A stretch of 64,000 bases of DNA from an uncultured bacterium (GCA_937139605.1 CAKZQG010000004.1:7832-71831); one strand, 5' to 3'. Shown: positions 15,725 through 24,574, counted from the stretch's first letter. Made by a program: numbers and translations. The notes: generated by a model from the sequence alone, not told the origin.

Positions 15725-16038
15725 TATATATAAAAAACAAAACACTCGGATAATTTCTAATATTAACACCATTATCTGTGTTGTATATCTTTTAATTACT
15801 TCTTCTACTTTAGCTGTTATAATTGAAAATAATAGTTTTAAATGGCGTTATTACTTCTTCTACCAAAATAATTTATATTAACACAGGCAAAATTTATAAT
15901 TCTAATTTCTAAAAAATCAATTTTATTTATTTTATATTTATTTTATAATCTCATATTGAAAATTAACTAAATTTTTATTGTTTTTATCAAACTCTATTCC
16001 TAATAAATATATTTTTTCATAACTTAAATATTTTTTAT

Positions 16039-16074
16039 ATTTACATACAACTTCGGAAATACTTTCCTCGTTGT
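16039..16074 (-). repeat. Hairpin insertion element E1 (36 bp)
   Basis: Read on the minus strand it starts ACAACGA, has inner stem GGAAA-GTA-TTTCC, then GAA, then GTTGT and a tail ATGTAAAT. The outer arms ACAAC/GTTGT differ from the usual ATAAC/GTTAT but remain complementary. The empty site in copy 2 is 21349/21350. It is flanked by TA on both sides and adds 12 residues in frame. Confidence 0.8.
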
Positions 16075-16148
16075 AGTATTCTTTTTCTTTAATTTGTTTT
16101 AAAGCTTTCCCTTTTTCTCTTTCATTCTCTAACACCTTAAACTCCATT

Positions 16149-16169
16149 ATAACGAAAGTTATATGAAAT
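16149..16169 (+). repeat. Hairpin insertion element E2 (21 bp, minimal form)
   Basis: Starts ATAACGA and ends GTTATATGAAAT, with only AA between; it lacks the inner stem. The empty site in copy 2 is 21423/21424. It adds 7 residues (FHITFVI in context) immediately before the EFK strand of the nuclease motif. The same insertion is present in copy 3 (22956). Confidence 0.8.
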
Positions 16170-16779
16170 ATATACACTACTTTTTTATCCACTACCATTG
16201 TTAAATCTATCCTCCCTTTTGATGTATTATCCTCTATTATTACATTCAATCCCGTTGTATATATCATACTAAATACCGCTATTACATAACTATATTCTTC
16301 TTTTAAATACATATAACTTATTGCACTTATTAATATCTCTATTTGCTCTTTTAACTCCTCTATCTTTTCTGTTTTTAATATCTCTATTATTTTCTCTGCT
16401 ATTACATTTACCTTTGATTTCTGTTTTACTAAATTATACAATATATCTCTATTAAATGATACTCTTACTTCTTTATTCGGAAATCCTAACTCAAACAATA
16501 TCCCATTTTCACTTACCTTATAATCCTTTATCGTTAAGTACCCACTTTGAAACATTATTGCTTCTATCTCTATTTCTTCTACATCAAATTTATTTAATAA
16601 ACTCTCATCTGCTTTTATCCCTTCTAATTCCACTATATTATACTCCTTTTGTTTTATTAACTTTATTAAAAAACTTGGTGTTCCCGTTTCATACCAGTAA
16701 TTCCTTATCTCTTTTTTATCTAAATATAACAACACATCAAACGGATTATACACTTTATTAGATAAAAAATATATCCGTT

Positions 16780-16814
16780 ATAACGAAACGCAGTATGCGT
16801 GAGTTATATGAAAT
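16780..16814 (+). repeat. Hairpin insertion element E3 (35 bp), first of a tandem pair
   Basis: Starts ATAACGA, inner stem ACGCA-GTA-TGCGT, then GA and GTTATATGAAAT. The empty site in copy 2 is 22031/22032. It joins directly to E4 through a shared TA. Confidence 0.85.
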
Positions 16815-16848
16815 ATAACGAACACAGTATGTGTGAGTTATATGAAAT
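16815..16848 (+). repeat. Hairpin insertion element E4 (34 bp), second of a tandem pair
   Basis: Starts ATAACGA, inner stem ACACA-GTA-TGTGT, then GA and GTTATATGAAAT. Compared with E3 the stem has changed on both sides and stays paired. The sense frame through it meets a TAA, ending the upstream coding piece. Confidence 0.85.
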
Positions 16849-17524
16849 ATACCATTCTTTTATTTCTTCTAAATTTACATCTTTTAAATACTCTTTAAAA
16901 TAATATTCTAATTCTTCTTGTGTATATCCACATATATCTCCATACCTCCTATCTAATGATATATCCTTTAGCTGATTTAATCCGCTAAACAGTGATACTT
17001 TTGCAAATTTTGAAACCCCCGTTACCAGCACAAATCTTATATATTTATCTAAAGCTTTTAATACTGAATAAAATCCTTTTAATATCTCTCTTACCTCATA
17101 TACTCCTTTCTTATCTATTAAATCCAATATCGGTTTATCGTACTCATCTATTAATATTACTACCTGCTTTCCTATTTTCTTAGCTATATGTTCTATCAAG
17201 AATCTCCAATTTATATATACACTTAAATTCCTTTTTATTTTATAGTCATATATCTCTGAATACTTTAATATTACTGAATATATTTGCTCTTTTAGTAAAT
17301 TCTTATTTAATATTTGAATTTCTCCAAAATCTACTCTTACTACTGGATACCTTTCACTCCAATCCCATTTATCCTCTATGTATAATCCTTTAAATAATTC
17401 CTTTTTCCCTTCATATAAATATTCTATTGTTGATAATAATAACGACTTCCCGAATCGTCTTGGCCTACTTAAAAATATATATTTACAACTACTTAATAAT
17501 TCATATATATACTTTGTTTTATCT

Positions 17525-17558
17525 ATAACGAAGGCGTAAGCCTAATGTTATATGAAAT
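17525..17558 (+). repeat. Hairpin insertion element E5 (34 bp)
   Basis: Starts ATAACGA, inner stem AGGC-GTAA-GCCT, then AAT and GTTATATGAAAT. The empty site is 22707/22708 in copy 2, and copy 3 is also empty here. Its 34 bases shift the frame near the start of copy 1. Confidence 0.85.
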
Positions 17559-17728
17559 ACATATATGTAATTGTTTGTTATTAATTTCTTAAAATCACTA
17601 ATACCAATTGGTAATCTCTTCATAAAAACCCCCTTTTAAATAAGCATTTTCTAAATTAATATTTAAATTAATTTAAAATATAATCCTGTTTTTTCTTAGG
17701 AATTTTCAGGAATTAGAAGAAAATCTAT

Positions 17729-17766
17729 AAAAAATATAAAAAAAATATAGGGGCATTAATGGCCCC
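17729..17766 (-). terminator. Rho-independent terminator of the PilX-like gene
   Basis: On the minus strand a GGGGC/GCCCC stem (17766-17762 with 17754-17750) with a 7-base loop is followed by a long T-rich tract (17749-17729, including a run of eight T). It lies about 60 bases after the stop at 17825. The GC-rich stem is conspicuous in this AT-rich sequence. Confidence 0.85.
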
Positions 17767-17824
17767 TTATTTCTTGTTTTATTTCCTTTTGTTTTTTATT
17801 ATAAAATCTTTTTTATTATAAAAT

Positions 17825-20800
17825 CTATTTACTTATGACGCTTTCTTGTCTATATAAAACAGGCACTAAAGTTATTACACTACCTGCTAATAAATTTACA
17901 TCTATACTATTCAAATCAAAGAAAAATGTAGTATTTTTAACACCTTTTATATTAACATTACCACTATTAGTTATCTTAGTGTTTCCTACAATTAGATTTC
18001 CTTGAAACAATAAATTATTAGTAGTTCCAGTTTTAGCTTTTAGATTATTCCCCACGAATACCATACCTTGCAACTTCACATCCCTTTCACTAAACCCACT
18101 TGATGCTAATAAAGAGGAAGTTATACTAGGGCTATCTTTAAGATTATTTAGTGCACCGGAATAACTAGCTCGATTAGGATTATTACCGACAAAATTTTTA
18201 TACAAAAATGGAAAATAATTTGAATTTGGTTGAGGATTATCAGAAATTGGTAAGTTATTATTCCATCCCTTTTGATTTAAAACATTTAAATAAGAATTAT
18301 ATAATCCATCTAACCTACCCTTAGCAAAATCTTTTGATTTTGTATAAACTCCATCTCTATTTGTAACAGTATCCCAAATCTTATTACTTCCAATAACATC
18401 TTCTATAATTTTGGGATCTTTTTGAAGAAAAGCTGTTGTTATCCATGCCAACTTTGCCATAGTAAAATTCTCACTACCATCATTAGCAGTACCATCAATA
18501 GAATCAAGTAATACTAAAGCAGCATCTTTATTCATTGTTAGAGTTGATGAGTAATTAGCTCCATTTCCGCTAACAATCAAAGTAACATCTGATGTACTAT
18601 CGTCCTTTTTTTTTCCATATAATTTTATTGTATATCCATTTACATTGTAAAATATCAACAAATGGGAATTAGTATAATCATCATATTGTGGATTTCCATC
18701 CCATAATCCATAACTAGAACTAGGGGGATTATTAGGATCTATATTTTTCCCTTTATATCTATATATTTGTCCATTTAATTTGTTATCTCCCCATTTACTA
18801 TTTATAATAGCTTTATAATTATCTTTTATTTTAAATTTTATTTTAAATCTATTAGTACTCGAGTTAGCTCCCCACATAATATCAAAATTCAATACTTCTT
18901 CTTCCCCCCAAAAAGAACTAATTTCAGTTTCAGAATCCCATTTTTTGCGATCGAATAGATATTGAAAAGCAGTATTGTATTTATTATTACTAATTTGATT
19001 ATTATTACCTTTTGTTATTCTTATATTAGGAGTATTATTTGTAGAACCAGTAGCCCAATTTACCAAAGAATAAGCCAACATTTGATCAAACCAATTTAAA
19101 TCCTGTATATTATAGCTAAGCGGATTTATATAAAGATCATTATCAACAATCAAAGCTAATTTATTATCAGAAGATTTCACTTGATCAAATCTTACCACCA
19201 TAGAACCAGATTTTAAAGTATTAGTATCTAAAATTGATATATCATTACCATTATAATTTACCCATTTATAAATAACGGTTCCAGTAGTAGGATCAGTAAA
19301 ACCATATCTATAAGGATAAAAAGCATCGCCATTGTTGGTATAATCTACGGTATAATCTACTGCAAAAGCATTACTAACTGTTGAAGGATTAGAAGGATCA
19401 TCATTAAGGATAGCAAAAGTTCCTTGTCCCTTAATCACCCCATCAATAGCAACAACTAGGTTTTCACCATACACAATAGAACCCTGATTACCTCCTAAAA
19501 ATATTTGAACATTTTTATTAGCAAAATATTTCTCGGAATCGCTATCATTAACTTTTCCAAAGCTACTTACAAAAAAGAAATTATTATTGCCAGTTGAGTC
19601 TGAAATTATTTTAACGTTATTATTTATTTTTATTTGATATTCATCTATATTTATATCATTTGGAAAAGAGTATCCTGGTGGTAAAGTCACACCTGGATTT
19701 ATTCCATCACTAAGACTACTTACATTAATGCTATCTAAAGCATTTTGTACGTCTGTAATACTCATAGTAGAAGGAAAATAAACAACTTTCTTAGAATCTA
19801 CAAATATATAATATCCAGCCGGCAAGGTTACATAATTATTAGGATCACTAAATTTACTTTTAACTAAATTAGCTAAAGAATCCCTAATTTTGGAAGTATT
19901 AGCATTCTTATCTTTAAAAGAAACATCAGCTTTTATAGCACTTTCAACTGTATTTTCTCTACCTTGACCCAACAGAGAATTATTAGGATCTTGAGGATCG
20001 TTTATTTTTGTATAATTAGTACCGTCAAAAGATAATCCATTTCCACTATCCTGTTTTACAATTAACGATCCATTTATAGGAGCATCTTGGTTATTAGTCA
20101 ATTTAAAAAGGGTTTGTTTAGATGGATTATTTTGAGAATCCCTTAGTGTTATATTAAAATTTTTAGCAATTAACTTATTAGTAGTAGCATTATCAGAAAT
20201 AGAAAAAATATTATTTGTAGTATCAATAGTCATAGTTCCATTAGCATAAGCAGAAGCACTTAATAAGCCTCCATTAGTTAGTTTTTGATCAACATATCTA
20301 ACTACATACCTATTAGTATTAGGAACTTTAGAATAACCCATTGCCATTAACAACACCGTATATTTATTAGCATTCCTATACCCATTTATACCCGTTATAT
20401 CAACATCATTATTAGCATTATTAACTGACGTATACAGCGGATAACTAATACCACTAATATTTGGATAATTTACATTATTACTAAAATTAAAATTTATTCT
20501 ATTATTATTAAAATAATTAAAATTTATTCTATTATTATTAAAATAATTAAAATTTATTCTATTATTATTAAAATTAACAGCTACTGCATTAGCATCATCT
20601 TTTTTATAAGTATTAGAAGAACCAGTATTATTACCAAAGAAAAGAATAGCACCGCTATCTGTTAAATTCCTATTCCTCGGACTTATCACCAACGCCACCA
20701 TAATTTTACTCGGAGAACCAACAACATTGAAATATCTATTAAAATTATTATTAATAGTTGAATCATTACTTATTACAATTTTATCTTTCAAATTCAATAC

Positions 20801-21124
20801 ACATATCCTATAATTATTACTATTAATCCTTTTTACTATATTAGTATTATTATCAGCAGATAAACTACCTAAATTAACTCCATCAGAATTAATAGTTAGT
20901 AAGCTTGGTTGAGAAGCGATAATAAACGAAGCAATGTTAATCGCAGATTCCGCATTATTTATTGCCTCATTTTCCGAATAAAAAGATTTCATATCAGCAT
21001 AGTTAGCTCTCGTTAAAGCAAAAAGAGCTACTGACATCATTATCAACACTAACACAAAAAATAACGTACTTATTAACAATATCCCCCGCTTATTAACTTT
21101 AACTCTATCTTTTAAATCATTCAT
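17825..21124 (-). CDS. Very large PilX-like type IV pilus-associated protein
   Basis: About 1100 residues. The start is ATG at 21124-21122, supported by GGAGGTGATT just upstream; an in-frame ATG 39 bases earlier has no such site. The N-terminus, NKRGILLISTLFFVLVLIMM followed by ALTRANYADMKSFYSENEAI and NNAESAINIASF, matches the PilX N-terminal pattern of a hydrophobic anchor and an A-E helix. The remainder is Asn/Ser/Asp-rich beta-type sequence suited to a surface domain. A 30-base tandem repeat gives 10-residue copies of NNNRINFNYF. Such proteins are minor pilins or pilus-tip adhesins in PilX/PilY1-like sets. No other pilus gene is adjacent. A strong terminator follows. It separates copies 1 and 2 of the AAA/PD-(D/E)XK family. 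Confidence 0.7.
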   Translation of the reverse strand: MNDLKDRVKVNKRGILLISTLFFVLVLIMMSVALFALTRANYADMKSFYSENEAINNAESAINIASFIIASQPSLLTINSDGVNLGSLSADNNTNIVKRINSNNYRICVLNLKDKIVISNDSTINNNFNRYFNVVGSPSKIMVALVISPRNRNLTDSGAILFFGNNTGSSNTYKKDDANAVAVNFNNNRINFNYFNNNRINFNYFNNNRINFNFSNNVNYPNISGISYPLYTSVNNANNDVDITGINGYRNANKYTVLLMAMGYSKVPNTNRYVVRYVDQKLTNGGLLSASAYANGTMTIDTTNNIFSISDNATTNKLIAKNFNITLRDSQNNPSKQTLFKLTNNQDAPINGSLIVKQDSGNGLSFDGTNYTKINDPQDPNNSLLGQGRENTVESAIKADVSFKDKNANTSKIRDSLANLVKSKFSDPNNYVTLPAGYYIFVDSKKVVYFPSTMSITDVQNALDSINVSSLSDGINPGVTLPPGYSFPNDINIDEYQIKINNNVKIISDSTGNNNFFFVSSFGKVNDSDSEKYFANKNVQIFLGGNQGSIVYGENLVVAIDGVIKGQGTFAILNDDPSNPSTVSNAFAVDYTVDYTNNGDAFYPYRYGFTDPTTGTVIYKWVNYNGNDISILDTNTLKSGSMVVRFDQVKSSDNKLALIVDNDLYINPLSYNIQDLNWFDQMLAYSLVNWATGSTNNTPNIRITKGNNNQISNNKYNTAFQYLFDRKKWDSETEISSFWGEEEVLNFDIMWGANSSTNRFKIKFKIKDNYKAIINSKWGDNKLNGQIYRYKGKNIDPNNPPSSSYGLWDGNPQYDDYTNSHLLIFYNVNGYTIKLYGKKKDDSTSDVTLIVSGNGANYSSTLTMNKDAALVLLDSIDGTANDGSENFTMAKLAWITTAFLQKDPKIIEDVIGSNKIWDTVTNRDGVYTKSKDFAKGRLDGLYNSYLNVLNQKGWNNNLPISDNPQPNSNYFPFLYKNFVGNNPNRASYSGALNNLKDSPSITSSLLASSGFSERDVKLQGMVFVGNNLKAKTGTTNNLLFQGNLIVGNTKITNSGNVNIKGVKNTTFFFDLNSIDVNLLAGSVITLVPVLYRQESVISK
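20491..20575 (-). repeat. 30-bp in-frame tandem repeat in the PilX-like gene (about 2.8 copies)
   Basis: Identical 30-base units start at 20491 and 20521, and a partial third starts at 20551. They encode NNNRINFNYF repeats in the surface part of the protein. A multiple of three bases keeps frame, so copy number can change without breaking the gene. Confidence 0.9.
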
Positions 21125-21239
21125 ATAATCACCTCCATTTATTATATTAAAAAAAAATCCCAAAAACTCCTACATACTTTTTTACAATTTTAAAATTTAT
21201 ATAACAATTTTAAAATCTATATAACAAATAGAAAAATAA

Positions 21240-22772
21240 CTAAGTCCCCTTCCTAATTACCTCATACTCAAAATTAACTAAATTTTTATTTACCTTATCA
21301 AACTCTATCCCTACTAAATATATCTTCTCATAATTCAGATATTTTCTATAGTACTCTTTTTCTTTAATTTGTTTCAAAGCTTTTCCTTTTTCTTCTTCTC
21401 TCTCTAGTACCTTAAACTCTATTACATATACCACCCTTTTATCCACTACTATTGTTAAATCTATTCTCCCCTTGGATGTATTATCCTCTATTACTACATT
21501 ATATCCCGTTGCATATACTAATCCATATATCGCTGCTGCATATACATACTCGTTCTTTAACACCTCATAACTTATTGTACTTATAAATATCTCTATCTGC
21601 TTTCTTATCTCTTCTATATTTTCTTTTTTAAATGCTAAGCTTATTAATGTTGTCTTATCTACTTGGTAATCTCCTGTTATATAAAATAATATCTCACTAT
21701 TAAATGATTTTCTTACCTCTTTATTCGGATAATCTAATGAATATAATACCTCCTCATTTTCATACTTATATTCTTCTTTTATTGTTAAATATCCAGTTTG
21801 GAACATCAACGCCTCTATACTTATATATTCTATGTCAAATTTCTCTAATATTTCACTTGTATAATATCTCTTATGCAAATATGGTAATTCAAAGTTTCTT
21901 TGTTTTATTATTTTAAATAAAAACTCTGTTCTTCCTGTCTCATACCAATAATTCCTTATCTCTTTCTTTCTTAAATATAATAACACATCAAACGGATTAT
22001 ATACTTTATTTGCTAAAAAATTATACCCATTATACCATTCCTTTACTTCTTCTATATTCACTCCTTCTAAATACTCCTTAAAATAATTCTCTAATTCTTC
22101 TTGGGTATACCCACATATATCTCCATACCTCTTATCTAATGATATATCCTCTAATTGATTTAATCCACTAAACAATGATACTTTCGCAAATTTACTTACT
22201 CCCGTTACTAACACAAATCTTATATACTCATCCATCCCTTTTAATACTGAATAAAATTCTTTTAATATTCTTCTTACTTCTTCTGCTTGTTTTTTGTCTT
22301 CTATTAGATCTAATATCGGCTTATCATATTCATCTATTAATACCACTACCTGCTTCTTATACTTCTTATTCAATTCTATTATCAACTTTTTAAAATTTCC
22401 GGGGATATCTTTTTCTTTATCCATTTCTATTTCATACCTTGCATAATTTAACTCCAATTCCTCTTTTATCCTCTCGTATATCTTTTTACCTTCTCTTATA
22501 TCTACTGAAAAATCTATTTTAATAACTGGATACCTTTCTTCCCAATCCCATTTATCCTCTATATACAATCCTTTAAATAGATCCCTTTTACCTTCATATA
22601 TATATCTTATTGTTGATAATAATAAAGATTTCCCGAAGCGTCTAGGTCTGCTTAAAAATACATACTTTGAACTACTTACTAACTCGTATATATACTTCGT
22701 CTTATCTACATACACATAATTTCCCTTTACTAACTCTCTAAAATCACTTATTCCTATAGGCAATCTCTTCAT
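21240..22772 (-). CDS. AAA-ATPase / PD-(D/E)XK nuclease-fold protein, copy 2 (intact)
   Basis: A 510-residue protein of the AAA-ATPase_like (PF09820) plus PDDEXK_9 (PF08011) architecture. Residues 42-49 are RPRRFGKS (Walker A-like), 142-150 VVVLIDEYD (Walker B), and near 436-455 GRIDL and IEFK, the PD-(D/E)XK catalytic residues. It opens MKRLPIGISDFRELV, the usual family start, which binds YVDKT. The family occurs as multi-copy sets in many anaerobes; its role is not established, though the nuclease core suggests nucleic-acid cutting or a toxin-like or defence role. Its ATG overlaps the stop of copy 3 (ATGA), so both were one operon. It contains none of the hairpin inserts and serves as the empty-site reference. 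Confidence 0.9.
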   Translation of the reverse strand: MKRLPIGISDFRELVKGNYVYVDKTKYIYELVSSSKYVFLSRPRRFGKSLLLSTIRYIYEGKRDLFKGLYIEDKWDWEERYPVIKIDFSVDIREGKKIYERIKEELELNYARYEIEMDKEKDIPGNFKKLIIELNKKYKKQVVVLIDEYDKPILDLIEDKKQAEEVRRILKEFYSVLKGMDEYIRFVLVTGVSKFAKVSLFSGLNQLEDISLDKRYGDICGYTQEELENYFKEYLEGVNIEEVKEWYNGYNFLANKVYNPFDVLLYLRKKEIRNYWYETGRTEFLFKIIKQRNFELPYLHKRYYTSEILEKFDIEYISIEALMFQTGYLTIKEEYKYENEEVLYSLDYPNKEVRKSFNSEILFYITGDYQVDKTTLISLAFKKENIEEIRKQIEIFISTISYEVLKNEYVYAAAIYGLVYATGYNVVIEDNTSKGRIDLTIVVDKRVVYVIEFKVLEREEEKGKALKQIKEKEYYRKYLNYEKIYLVGIEFDKVNKNLVNFEYEVIRKGT

Positions 22773-22955
22773 TTTCCAACACCACCTATTACTTCATACT
22801 CAAAATTAACTAACTCCTTTTTTACCTTATCAAACTCTATCCCCACTAAGTAAATTTTTTCATAATTTAAATATTTTTTAAAGTACTCTTTTTCTTTTAT
22901 CTGCTTTAATGCTTTCCCTTTTTCTTTTTGATTCTCTAACACCTTAAACTCCATT

Positions 22956-22976
22956 ATAACGAAAGTTATATGAAAT
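22956..22976 (+). repeat. Hairpin insertion element E6 (21 bp, minimal form)
   Basis: Identical to E2 in sequence and in site (before EFKV). It starts ATAACGA and ends GTTATATGAAAT. It is shared with copy 1, so it predates the copy 1/copy 3 duplication or was spread by gene conversion. Confidence 0.8.
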
Positions 22977-23384
22977 ATATATACTACTTTTTTATCCACT
23001 ACTATTGTTAAATCTATTCTTCCTTTTGATGTATTGTCTTCTATTATCGCATTATATCCTGTAGAATATATTAGCCCATATACTGCTGCAGAATAAACAT
23101 ATTCATTCTTTAACACCTCATAACTTATTGTACTTATAAATATCTCTATCTGCTTCTTTATCTCTTCTACCTCTTCTTTTATTAATGCTAATTCTAATGG
23201 CTTTGTTATATATTGTTTATAATCTCTCGTTATATAAAACAATAACTCATTGTTAAATGCTTCTCTTACTTCTCTATTTGGATAATCTAATGTATACAAA
23301 ACCTCTTCATTTTCATATTTATACTCTTCTTTTATAGTTAAATACCCAATTTGAAGCATTAATGCTTCTATGCTTATATATTCT

Positions 23385-23420
23385 ATAACGAGAGATGTAT
23401 TCTCGAAGTTATATGATAAT
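23385..23420 (+). repeat. Hairpin insertion element E7 (36 bp)
   Basis: Starts ATAACGA, inner stem GAGA with TCTC around an ATGTA-type loop, then GAA and GTTATATGATAAT. The empty site is 21831/21832 in copy 2; copy 1 is also empty. It adds 12 residues (LSYNFENTSLVI) in frame. Confidence 0.85.
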
Positions 23421-23620
23421 ATGTCAAATTTCTCTAATATTTCACTTGTGTAATACCTCTTATACAAATATGGTAAATCAAAGTTCTTTTGTTTTATTAT
23501 TTTAAATAAAAACTCCGTTCTCCCTGTCTCATACCAATAGTTCCTTATTTCCTTCTTATCTAAATATAACAACATATCAAATGGATTATATACTTTATTG
23601 CCTAAAAAATTATATCCGTT

Positions 23621-23654
23621 ATAACGAAGGCAGTATGCGTGAGTTATATGAAAT
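23621..23654 (+). repeat. Hairpin insertion element E8 (34 bp), first of a tandem pair
   Basis: Same site as E3. The inner stem AGGCA-GTA-TGCGT carries one mismatch compared with E3 and is one base shorter, so the tandem pair is 68 rather than 69 bases and shifts the frame. Confidence 0.85.
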
Positions 23655-23688
23655 ATAACGAACACAGTATGTGTGAGTTATATGAAAT
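23655..23688 (+). repeat. Hairpin insertion element E9 (34 bp), second of a tandem pair
   Basis: Identical to E4, with inner stem ACACA-GTA-TGTGT, at the same site in copy 3. Confidence 0.85.
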
Positions 23689-23830
23689 ATACCACTCCTT
23701 TACCTCTTCTATATTTACTCCTTCTAAATACTCCTTAAAATAATTCTCTAATTCCTCTTGGGTATACCCACATATATCTCCATACCTCTTATCTAATGAT
23801 ATATCCTCTAATTGATTTAATCCACTAAAT

Positions 23831-23864
23831 ATTTTCATATAACTTCGGTATACTACCTCGTTAT
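23831..23864 (-). repeat. Hairpin insertion element E10 (34 bp, reverse orientation)
   Basis: Read on the minus strand it starts ATAACGA, has inner stem GGTA-GTA-TACC, then GAA and GTTATATGAAAAT. The empty site is 22173/22174 in copy 2; copy 1 is also empty. It shows that the element inserts in both orientations. Confidence 0.85.
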
Positions 23865-24574
23865 AGTGATACTTTTGCAAATTTTTAAACCCCTGTTACT
23901 ATCACAAACTTTATATATTCATCTATTCCTTTTAATACTGAATAAAATTCTTTTAATGTTTTTCTTACTTCTTCTGCTTGTTTCTTATCTTCTATTACAT
24001 CTAATATCGGCTTATCATATTCATCTATTAACACTACTACCTGTTTTTTATATTTCTCATTTAATTGCATTACTAATTCTTCTAACAGATATCCCCCATC
24101 TTCTTCTTTTTTCCCCATTTTTATTTCATACTTCTTATAATTCTTTTTTAATTCATAATATATCTTCTTCTTTAATTCTTCTTTATTTTCTATATCCTTT
24201 GCAAAATTTATCTTTATTACAGGATATTTTTCATTCCAATCCCATTTATTTTCTATGTATAATCCTTTAAATAATTCTCTTTGACCTTCATGTAAATATT
24301 CTATTGTAGATAATAACAGTGATTTTCCAAAACGTTTTGGCCTACTTAAAAATATATATCCTCCATTACTTATCAACTCATATATATACTTTGTTTTATC
24401 AACATATATATAATTATTTGTTATTAATTTCTTAAAATCACTAATACCAATTGGTAATTTCTTCATAAAAAACCCCTCTTTTAAATAATTAATTTCTAAA
24501 TTAATATTTAAATTAAATAAAAACAAAACCCTGTTTTTAAAAATTTCAGAAACTTTAATTTATAGAGAAATACA

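Follow-up and report, generated by a model that had tools for sequence, protein, structure and literature searches.

The window analysed here is a stretch of 64,000 nucleotides (C4:7832-71831) of a 1.88 Mb genome (G000) with about 23% G+C. The assembly is incomplete (45 contigs), and many copies of the gene family described below lie at contig ends. Three paralogues of this family are encoded on the minus strand of the window (Table 1). Copy 2 contains the domains PF09820 (AAA-ATPase_like) and PF08011 (PDDEXK_9, formerly DUF1703), an architecture that is referred to as DUF1703 in the literature (PMC6387759). In total, the family takes up about 27 kb, corresponding to about 1.4% of G000.

The stop codon of copy 3 overlaps the start of copy 2 by 4 bp (22769-22772). 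Between the paralogues lies an open reading frame of 1112 amino acids (17825-21163) whose N-terminus is hydrophobic and prepilin/PilX-like; it contains an in-frame tandem repeat of three 30-nt units at 20474-20573. The paralogue block (16001-24000) has a GC skew of -0.39 and a G+C content of 27%, compared to 22-24% in the rest of the window.

Table 1. Family copies and inserts in the window. Coding nt gives the site within the gene for G000; C5a, C5b, C6, C42 and C45 are family copies elsewhere in G000.
Feature	Window position	Strand or orientation	Length	Coding nt	Remarks
Copy 1 (W1)	15938..17624	-			five inserts (A, B1, B2, D, E); 1-nt deletion outside them
Copy 2 (W2)	21240..22772	-	510 aa		intact; all insert sites empty
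Copy 3 (W3)	22769..24466	-			five inserts (B1, B2, C, D, F); extra in-frame stop adjoining insert C
Element E	16038..16075	-	36 nt	1422	reversed, TACAACGA...GTTGTATGTAAATA; in frame and open; also in C5a
Element D (W1)	16148..16170	+	21 nt	1346	minimal form without inner stem; in PD-(D/E)XK core strand region
Element B2 (W1)	16779..16814	+	35 nt	738	variant
Element B1 (W1)	16815..16849	+	34 nt	738	tandem with B2
Element A	17524..17559	+	34 nt	64	frame-shifting; seven paralogues filled at the same site
Element D (W3)	22955..22977	+	21 nt	1346	identical to the W1 copy of D
Element F	23384..23421	+	36 nt	939	in frame and open; also in C5a, C5b, C45
Element B2 (W3)	23620..23655	+	34 nt	738
Element B1 (W3)	23655..23689	+	34 nt	738	tandem with B2
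Element C	23830..23865	-	34 nt	598	reversed; also in C5a
Element G			54 nt	~1365	present in C6 and C42

The sequence-only reading had described ten short inserts of 21, 34, 35 or 36 nt in copies 1 and 3. All ten were present at their positions, two of them (16039 and 23831) were reversed as described, and the corresponding sites in copy 2 were clean and empty at every position. All matches of a covariance model on this contig fell within copies 1 and 3, in agreement with the earlier statement that the window holds no further copies. The inserts represent seven distinct element positions (A, B1, B2, C, D, E and F). Because B1, B2 and D are each present in both copy 1 and copy 3, the ten inserts do not stand for ten independent insertions. 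Common ends had been claimed for all inserts, which holds in general, except that the reversed copy at 16039 reads TACAACGA...GTTGTATGTAAA and not ATAACGA...GTTATATGAAAT, and that the copy at 23831 ends with TGAAAA. The difference at 16039 is a compensated exchange of a T-A pair for a C-G pair.

The dinucleotide TA, which had been reported at both junctions, was found at every insertion point of the ten inserts. With a TA frequency of 14.5% among the dinucleotides of the intact copy 2, the chance of finding TA at all seven sites is about 1e-6. At the sites A, C, E and 209 (the last one in the same-genus genome G001) the target dinucleotide is variable among the paralogues, and the insert carriers always have TA. 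The TA target duplication and the empty sites are those of a TA-type MITE.

Most elements have a length of 34-36 nt, with a minimal form of 21 nt and a long form of 54 nt. When read as TATAACGA...GTTATATGAAATA, the ends form an outer stem TATAAC/GTTATA, which is a 6-bp inverted repeat. It encloses an asymmetric GA-containing internal loop, an inner stem of 4-5 bp and a loop of 3-5 nt, and the hairpin is followed by an unpaired TGAAATA-like tail. The folds are non-random, with RNA folding z-scores of -1.8 to -4.2 for the strands tested, and the DNA folds agree. Eight element types, six from G000 and two from G001, were then compared in a hand-made alignment with the loops removed and the stems lined up. 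Their inner stems were almost wholly different and yet paired. Thirteen two-sided changes were counted, including the T-A to C-G exchange in the outer stem of E, and none of 500 shuffles scored as high.

In the entire G000 genome, 20 copies were found by an exact pattern, 35 and one chance match by a looser pattern, and 35 with confidence by the covariance model. All real matches were located within AAA-ATPase_like/PDDEXK_9 paralogues and none outside the family. The elements occupy eight positions at seven sites, one of which holds a tandem pair, and each position is common to two to ten paralogues. For element D, all 10 genomic copies are identical. C33 has a single B element instead of B1 and B2 and is an intermediate for the tandem pair. 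The confinement to one family and mostly to the same few sites indicates that most of the G000 copies arose by copying between paralogues and not by fresh transposition.

In G001, a 36-nt variant was observed at the new site 209 in 2 of 29 family copies. Although 483 of 1497 positions (32%) are different between the two carriers, their inserts are identical. A third element copy in G001, also a variant, lies outside the family, 2.3 kb from a family member, in an HD-domain gene that is decayed by several deletions (L135:3975-4012, C100). Weak covariance-model matches in C88, C87, C47, C85 and C58 of G001 look like chance. The approximately 29 nearly full-length family copies of G001 are mostly intact, showing that the interruption of roughly half of the copies is specific to the species of the window. 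In G003 and G005 no hairpin inserts were seen in the few alignable family pieces. A strict-pattern scan of 84,980 species genomes and IMG/VR returned six loose matches, mostly with long gaps and in unrelated taxa and contexts, which were judged to be chance.

The proposal of a mobile hairpin was borne out in part. TA-flanked hairpins, empty sites, several positions, two orientations, the G001 variant at another site and the covarying stems agree with it, whereas free genome-wide mobility was not observed. Absence of the segments elsewhere, with the same flanking sequence in all relatives, had been named as a result that would speak against mobility. The segments were absent outside the family and present within it, and the flanks were not the same in all relatives. 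Dispersal over many genomic locations, as for a TA-type MITE, was not seen in G000.

A parallel case was found in the sister genus (G002), where another type of insert, about 14-22 nt long, is present in at least six copies of this family at no fewer than eight sites. The insert-bearing family copies are L121, L124-L128 and L120. The inserts contain G- and C-runs, for example GGGGTAGGGGTCCCC or GGGGACCCCTACCCC. A whole-genome search allowing up to 2 mismatches gave 18 matches, all at family loci, and the control gave 0. Unlike the G000 elements, with which they have no sequence in common, these inserts do not lie at TA, and because of their composition their folds are statistically less distinctive. 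A double hairpin of 30 nt was seen in one copy, and four copies have a common 14-nt insert in their Walker A region. The carriers are mostly decayed, with C15:74181 (C15a) being otherwise intact with an in-frame 21-nt insert. The sites 68 and 604 of G002 lie within 4-6 nt of the G000 sites A and C, respectively. In the large family expansions of G056, G096 and G101, which belong to other phyla, inspection of the reading frames showed essentially intact copies without obvious interruptions. Interruption is therefore not typical of the gene family in general. The finding of unrelated inserts in one and the same family of two genera suggests that the family attracts such inserts or that inserts persist only there, and the parallel with unrelated hairpins makes an explanation by chance unlikely.

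If the inserts were ordinary MITEs, an IS630/Tc1-like element with a TA duplication would have inserted miniature derivatives, and duplication or conversion within the family would have multiplied the copies. TA at every junction, the terminal palindrome, the high A+T content and the empty sites fit this. It also has a precedent in RUP of Streptococcus pneumoniae, which is mobilised by IS630-Spn1 and is known for inserting into and inactivating multicopy IS genes (PMC2229807). A transposase of the IS630/Tc1 type had been proposed as the mover, but a search of 7 genomes, G000 and six relatives, with the single family DDE_3 (PF13358) found no match. The Y1 (HUH) transposase PF01797 was absent from G000 and G001, and in G002 one short piece and a contig-edge fragment were found. 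Moreover, elements of 21-36 nt are too short for two normal transposase-binding ends, G000 has no copies outside the family, and the sister-genus inserts differ in sequence and target. Taken together, we consider an ordinary MITE unlikely.

How the inserts spread was addressed by comparing them with their surroundings. Between carriers, inserts at the same site show a divergence of 0-1.4%, compared to 8-16% (0.083-0.160) for the adjacent 60 nt of coding sequence on each side. Each insert therefore appears to have reached diverged paralogues while bringing hardly any of its flanks along. Over most distances, the flanks of the A, B and D carriers were no more alike than those of other pairs, even at less than 25 nt on at least one side. 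When compared to ordinary SNPs of similar frequency, inserts A and B ranked among the lowest 11-12% by mean r2 and among the lowest 3-4% by maximum r2 to SNPs at distances of up to 40 bp, and the linkage of D and F was unremarkable. The insert linkage is low and still inside the range of ordinary SNPs, and a complete lack of linkage between inserts and flanks is not supported by this comparison. The family as a whole is a mosaic, with an r2 of 0.38 at distances of 1-5 bp and of 0.09 at more than 320 bp, and recombination of DUF1703 paralogues was independently reported for Cardinium cCpun (PMC6387759). The pattern of the inserts resembles that of conversions with very short tracts, a little shorter than is usual.

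A nearly identical insert at the same site with weakly linked flanks could also result from a homing-like process. Here a nuclease, possibly the AAA/PD-(D/E)XK proteins themselves, would cut conserved empty sites, the repair would copy the hairpin in, and filled sites would be immune. The insertion sites lean to conserved coding positions (p=0.025), which is in line with this, as are the two neighbouring sites in G002 and the fact that the same nuclease family was hit by unrelated inserts in two genera. However, the cutting specificity of the family proteins is a candidate only, the expansions in other phyla are essentially intact, and the insert linkage is not clearly below that of SNPs. We regard homing as rather improbable.

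The state of the interrupted genes was analysed by their private substitutions. The insert carriers had 37 non-synonymous and 12 synonymous changes and 2 stops, distributed 14/19/18 over the codon positions. Their synonymous fraction of 0.235 (23.5%) fits the neutral expectation of 0.249 (24.9%), whereas intact copies had a fraction of 0.444 (p=0.011 against neutral). In G001 the synonymous fraction was 36%, also different from neutral. The direct contrast of private substitutions between carriers and intact copies was suggestive only (Fisher p=0.06). Five carriers showed further lesions, namely stops in C5a and W3, frameshifts in W1, C5b and C9, and a lost start codon in C9. The exons between the inserts are unusually clean, and in the complete carriers C6 and C45 the inserts are the only lesions, so that in these two an insert probably came first. 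We conclude that most carriers are young pseudogenes.

The nearly lesion-free exons of C6 and C45 and the conserved ends of the hairpins would also be compatible with RNA removal or ribosome skipping, as in mitochondrial byps, by which the interrupted genes would stay functional. The neutral-looking private substitutions argue against splicing or ribosome bypass, and so do the additional lesions in the five carriers and the occurrence of inserts in all codon phases and both orientations. We give this explanation hardly any weight. It is just as improbable that the inserts are RPE-like in-frame peptide insertions which are tolerated by working proteins. The 21-, 36- and 54-nt forms keep the reading frame open, and G1_05 in G001 resembles C15a of G002 in being otherwise intact with an in-frame insert, but the 34-nt forms A, B and C cause frameshifts that end in stops, and most G000 carriers cannot be translated over their full length.

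The best reading of these results is an ultra-small, TA-specific, RPE/MITE-like hairpin that was spread by very short-tract conversion or by repeated site-specific insertion. On balance we hold it probable, if only just, that such elements entered a highly recombining family, spread to the same sites almost without their flanks and made the carriers pseudogenes. The first insertions would have occurred at a handful of TA sites by a TA-specific activity that was lost or is not recognised. Gene conversion of very short tracts may then have kept the hairpin loop while neighbouring mismatches were resolved to the recipient; a repeated, homing-like insertion into the same site is the alternative route. 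With the arrival of the insert the carrier would become a pseudogene. Only in this family would recombination be frequent enough to pass an insert on, which would account for the confinement, although the one G001 copy in the HD-domain gene runs counter to a family-confined spread. A preferential retention of short palindromic loops is described in work cited in PMC6485458, where loops of 12 and 14 bp were kept and loops of 40 bp removed; this result is from eukaryotes and concerns shorter loops than the inserts here. The main gap in this reading is that conversion, which can carry an insert only to the equivalent site of another copy, does not account for the presence of related elements at eight positions of a single family when the rest of G000 has none.

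A wider and more speculative reading, which we think doubtful, is that parasitic or controlling minimal hairpins, unrelated in sequence across genera, multiply only inside this self-recombining AAA-ATPase/PD-(D/E)XK family. A homing-like drive, either by the family's own nuclease or by escape of the loop from mismatch repair, would spread them and switch members off. If these interpretations are true, the inserts, at 21-54 nt, fall far below the size of the bacterial MITEs covered by the cited literature, and a hairpin can multiply selfishly by conversion or homing while staying within one multigene family. The locus would then offer a natural test of the hairpin-loop bias in bacterial recombination and of the effect that the widespread, uncharacterised DUF1703 AAA/PD-(D/E)XK proteins have on the genes encoding them.

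Several known systems resemble the elements in part. Short hairpin or TA-bounded inserts that interrupt genes are found as mitochondrial byps and as the TA-bounded IES of ciliates. Their host genes stay functional, whereas the carriers here look like pseudogenes. RUP and Correia/NEMIS elements, which are MITEs that duplicate TA, are likewise non-coding and A+T-rich with TA ends and a hairpin transcript. They are about 100-200 bp long with 9- or 24-bp terminal inverted repeats and are spread genome-wide, with a partner IS inferred for RUP (PMC2229807). In contrast, the elements described here have 21-54 nt and a 6-bp outer inverted repeat, they reside in one family, and a partner transposase was not found.

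A likeness to the Rickettsia palindromic elements (RPEs) had been suggested. It holds in that both are palindromic inserts within the open reading frames of protein genes, some of them in frame and open, and fails in size, frame and target range. RPEs are about 105-146 bp long and are inserted in frame into many unrelated genes, whereas most inserts here shift the frame and are restricted to one G000 family; in-frame insertion into unrelated, still functional genes was not observed. In size the elements are similar to the REP elements of the RAYT/IS200-IS605 Y1 systems, which are imperfect hairpins of 20-40 bp, many with GTAG or CGTC tags (PMC3733652). REPs are mostly extragenic and paired with Y1 transposases, unlike the elements here, which are intragenic in a genome where a Y1 gene was not found. 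Since RUP/Correia, RPEs and REPs each match in part and none in full, we place the elements as a variant of the small palindromic insertion elements.
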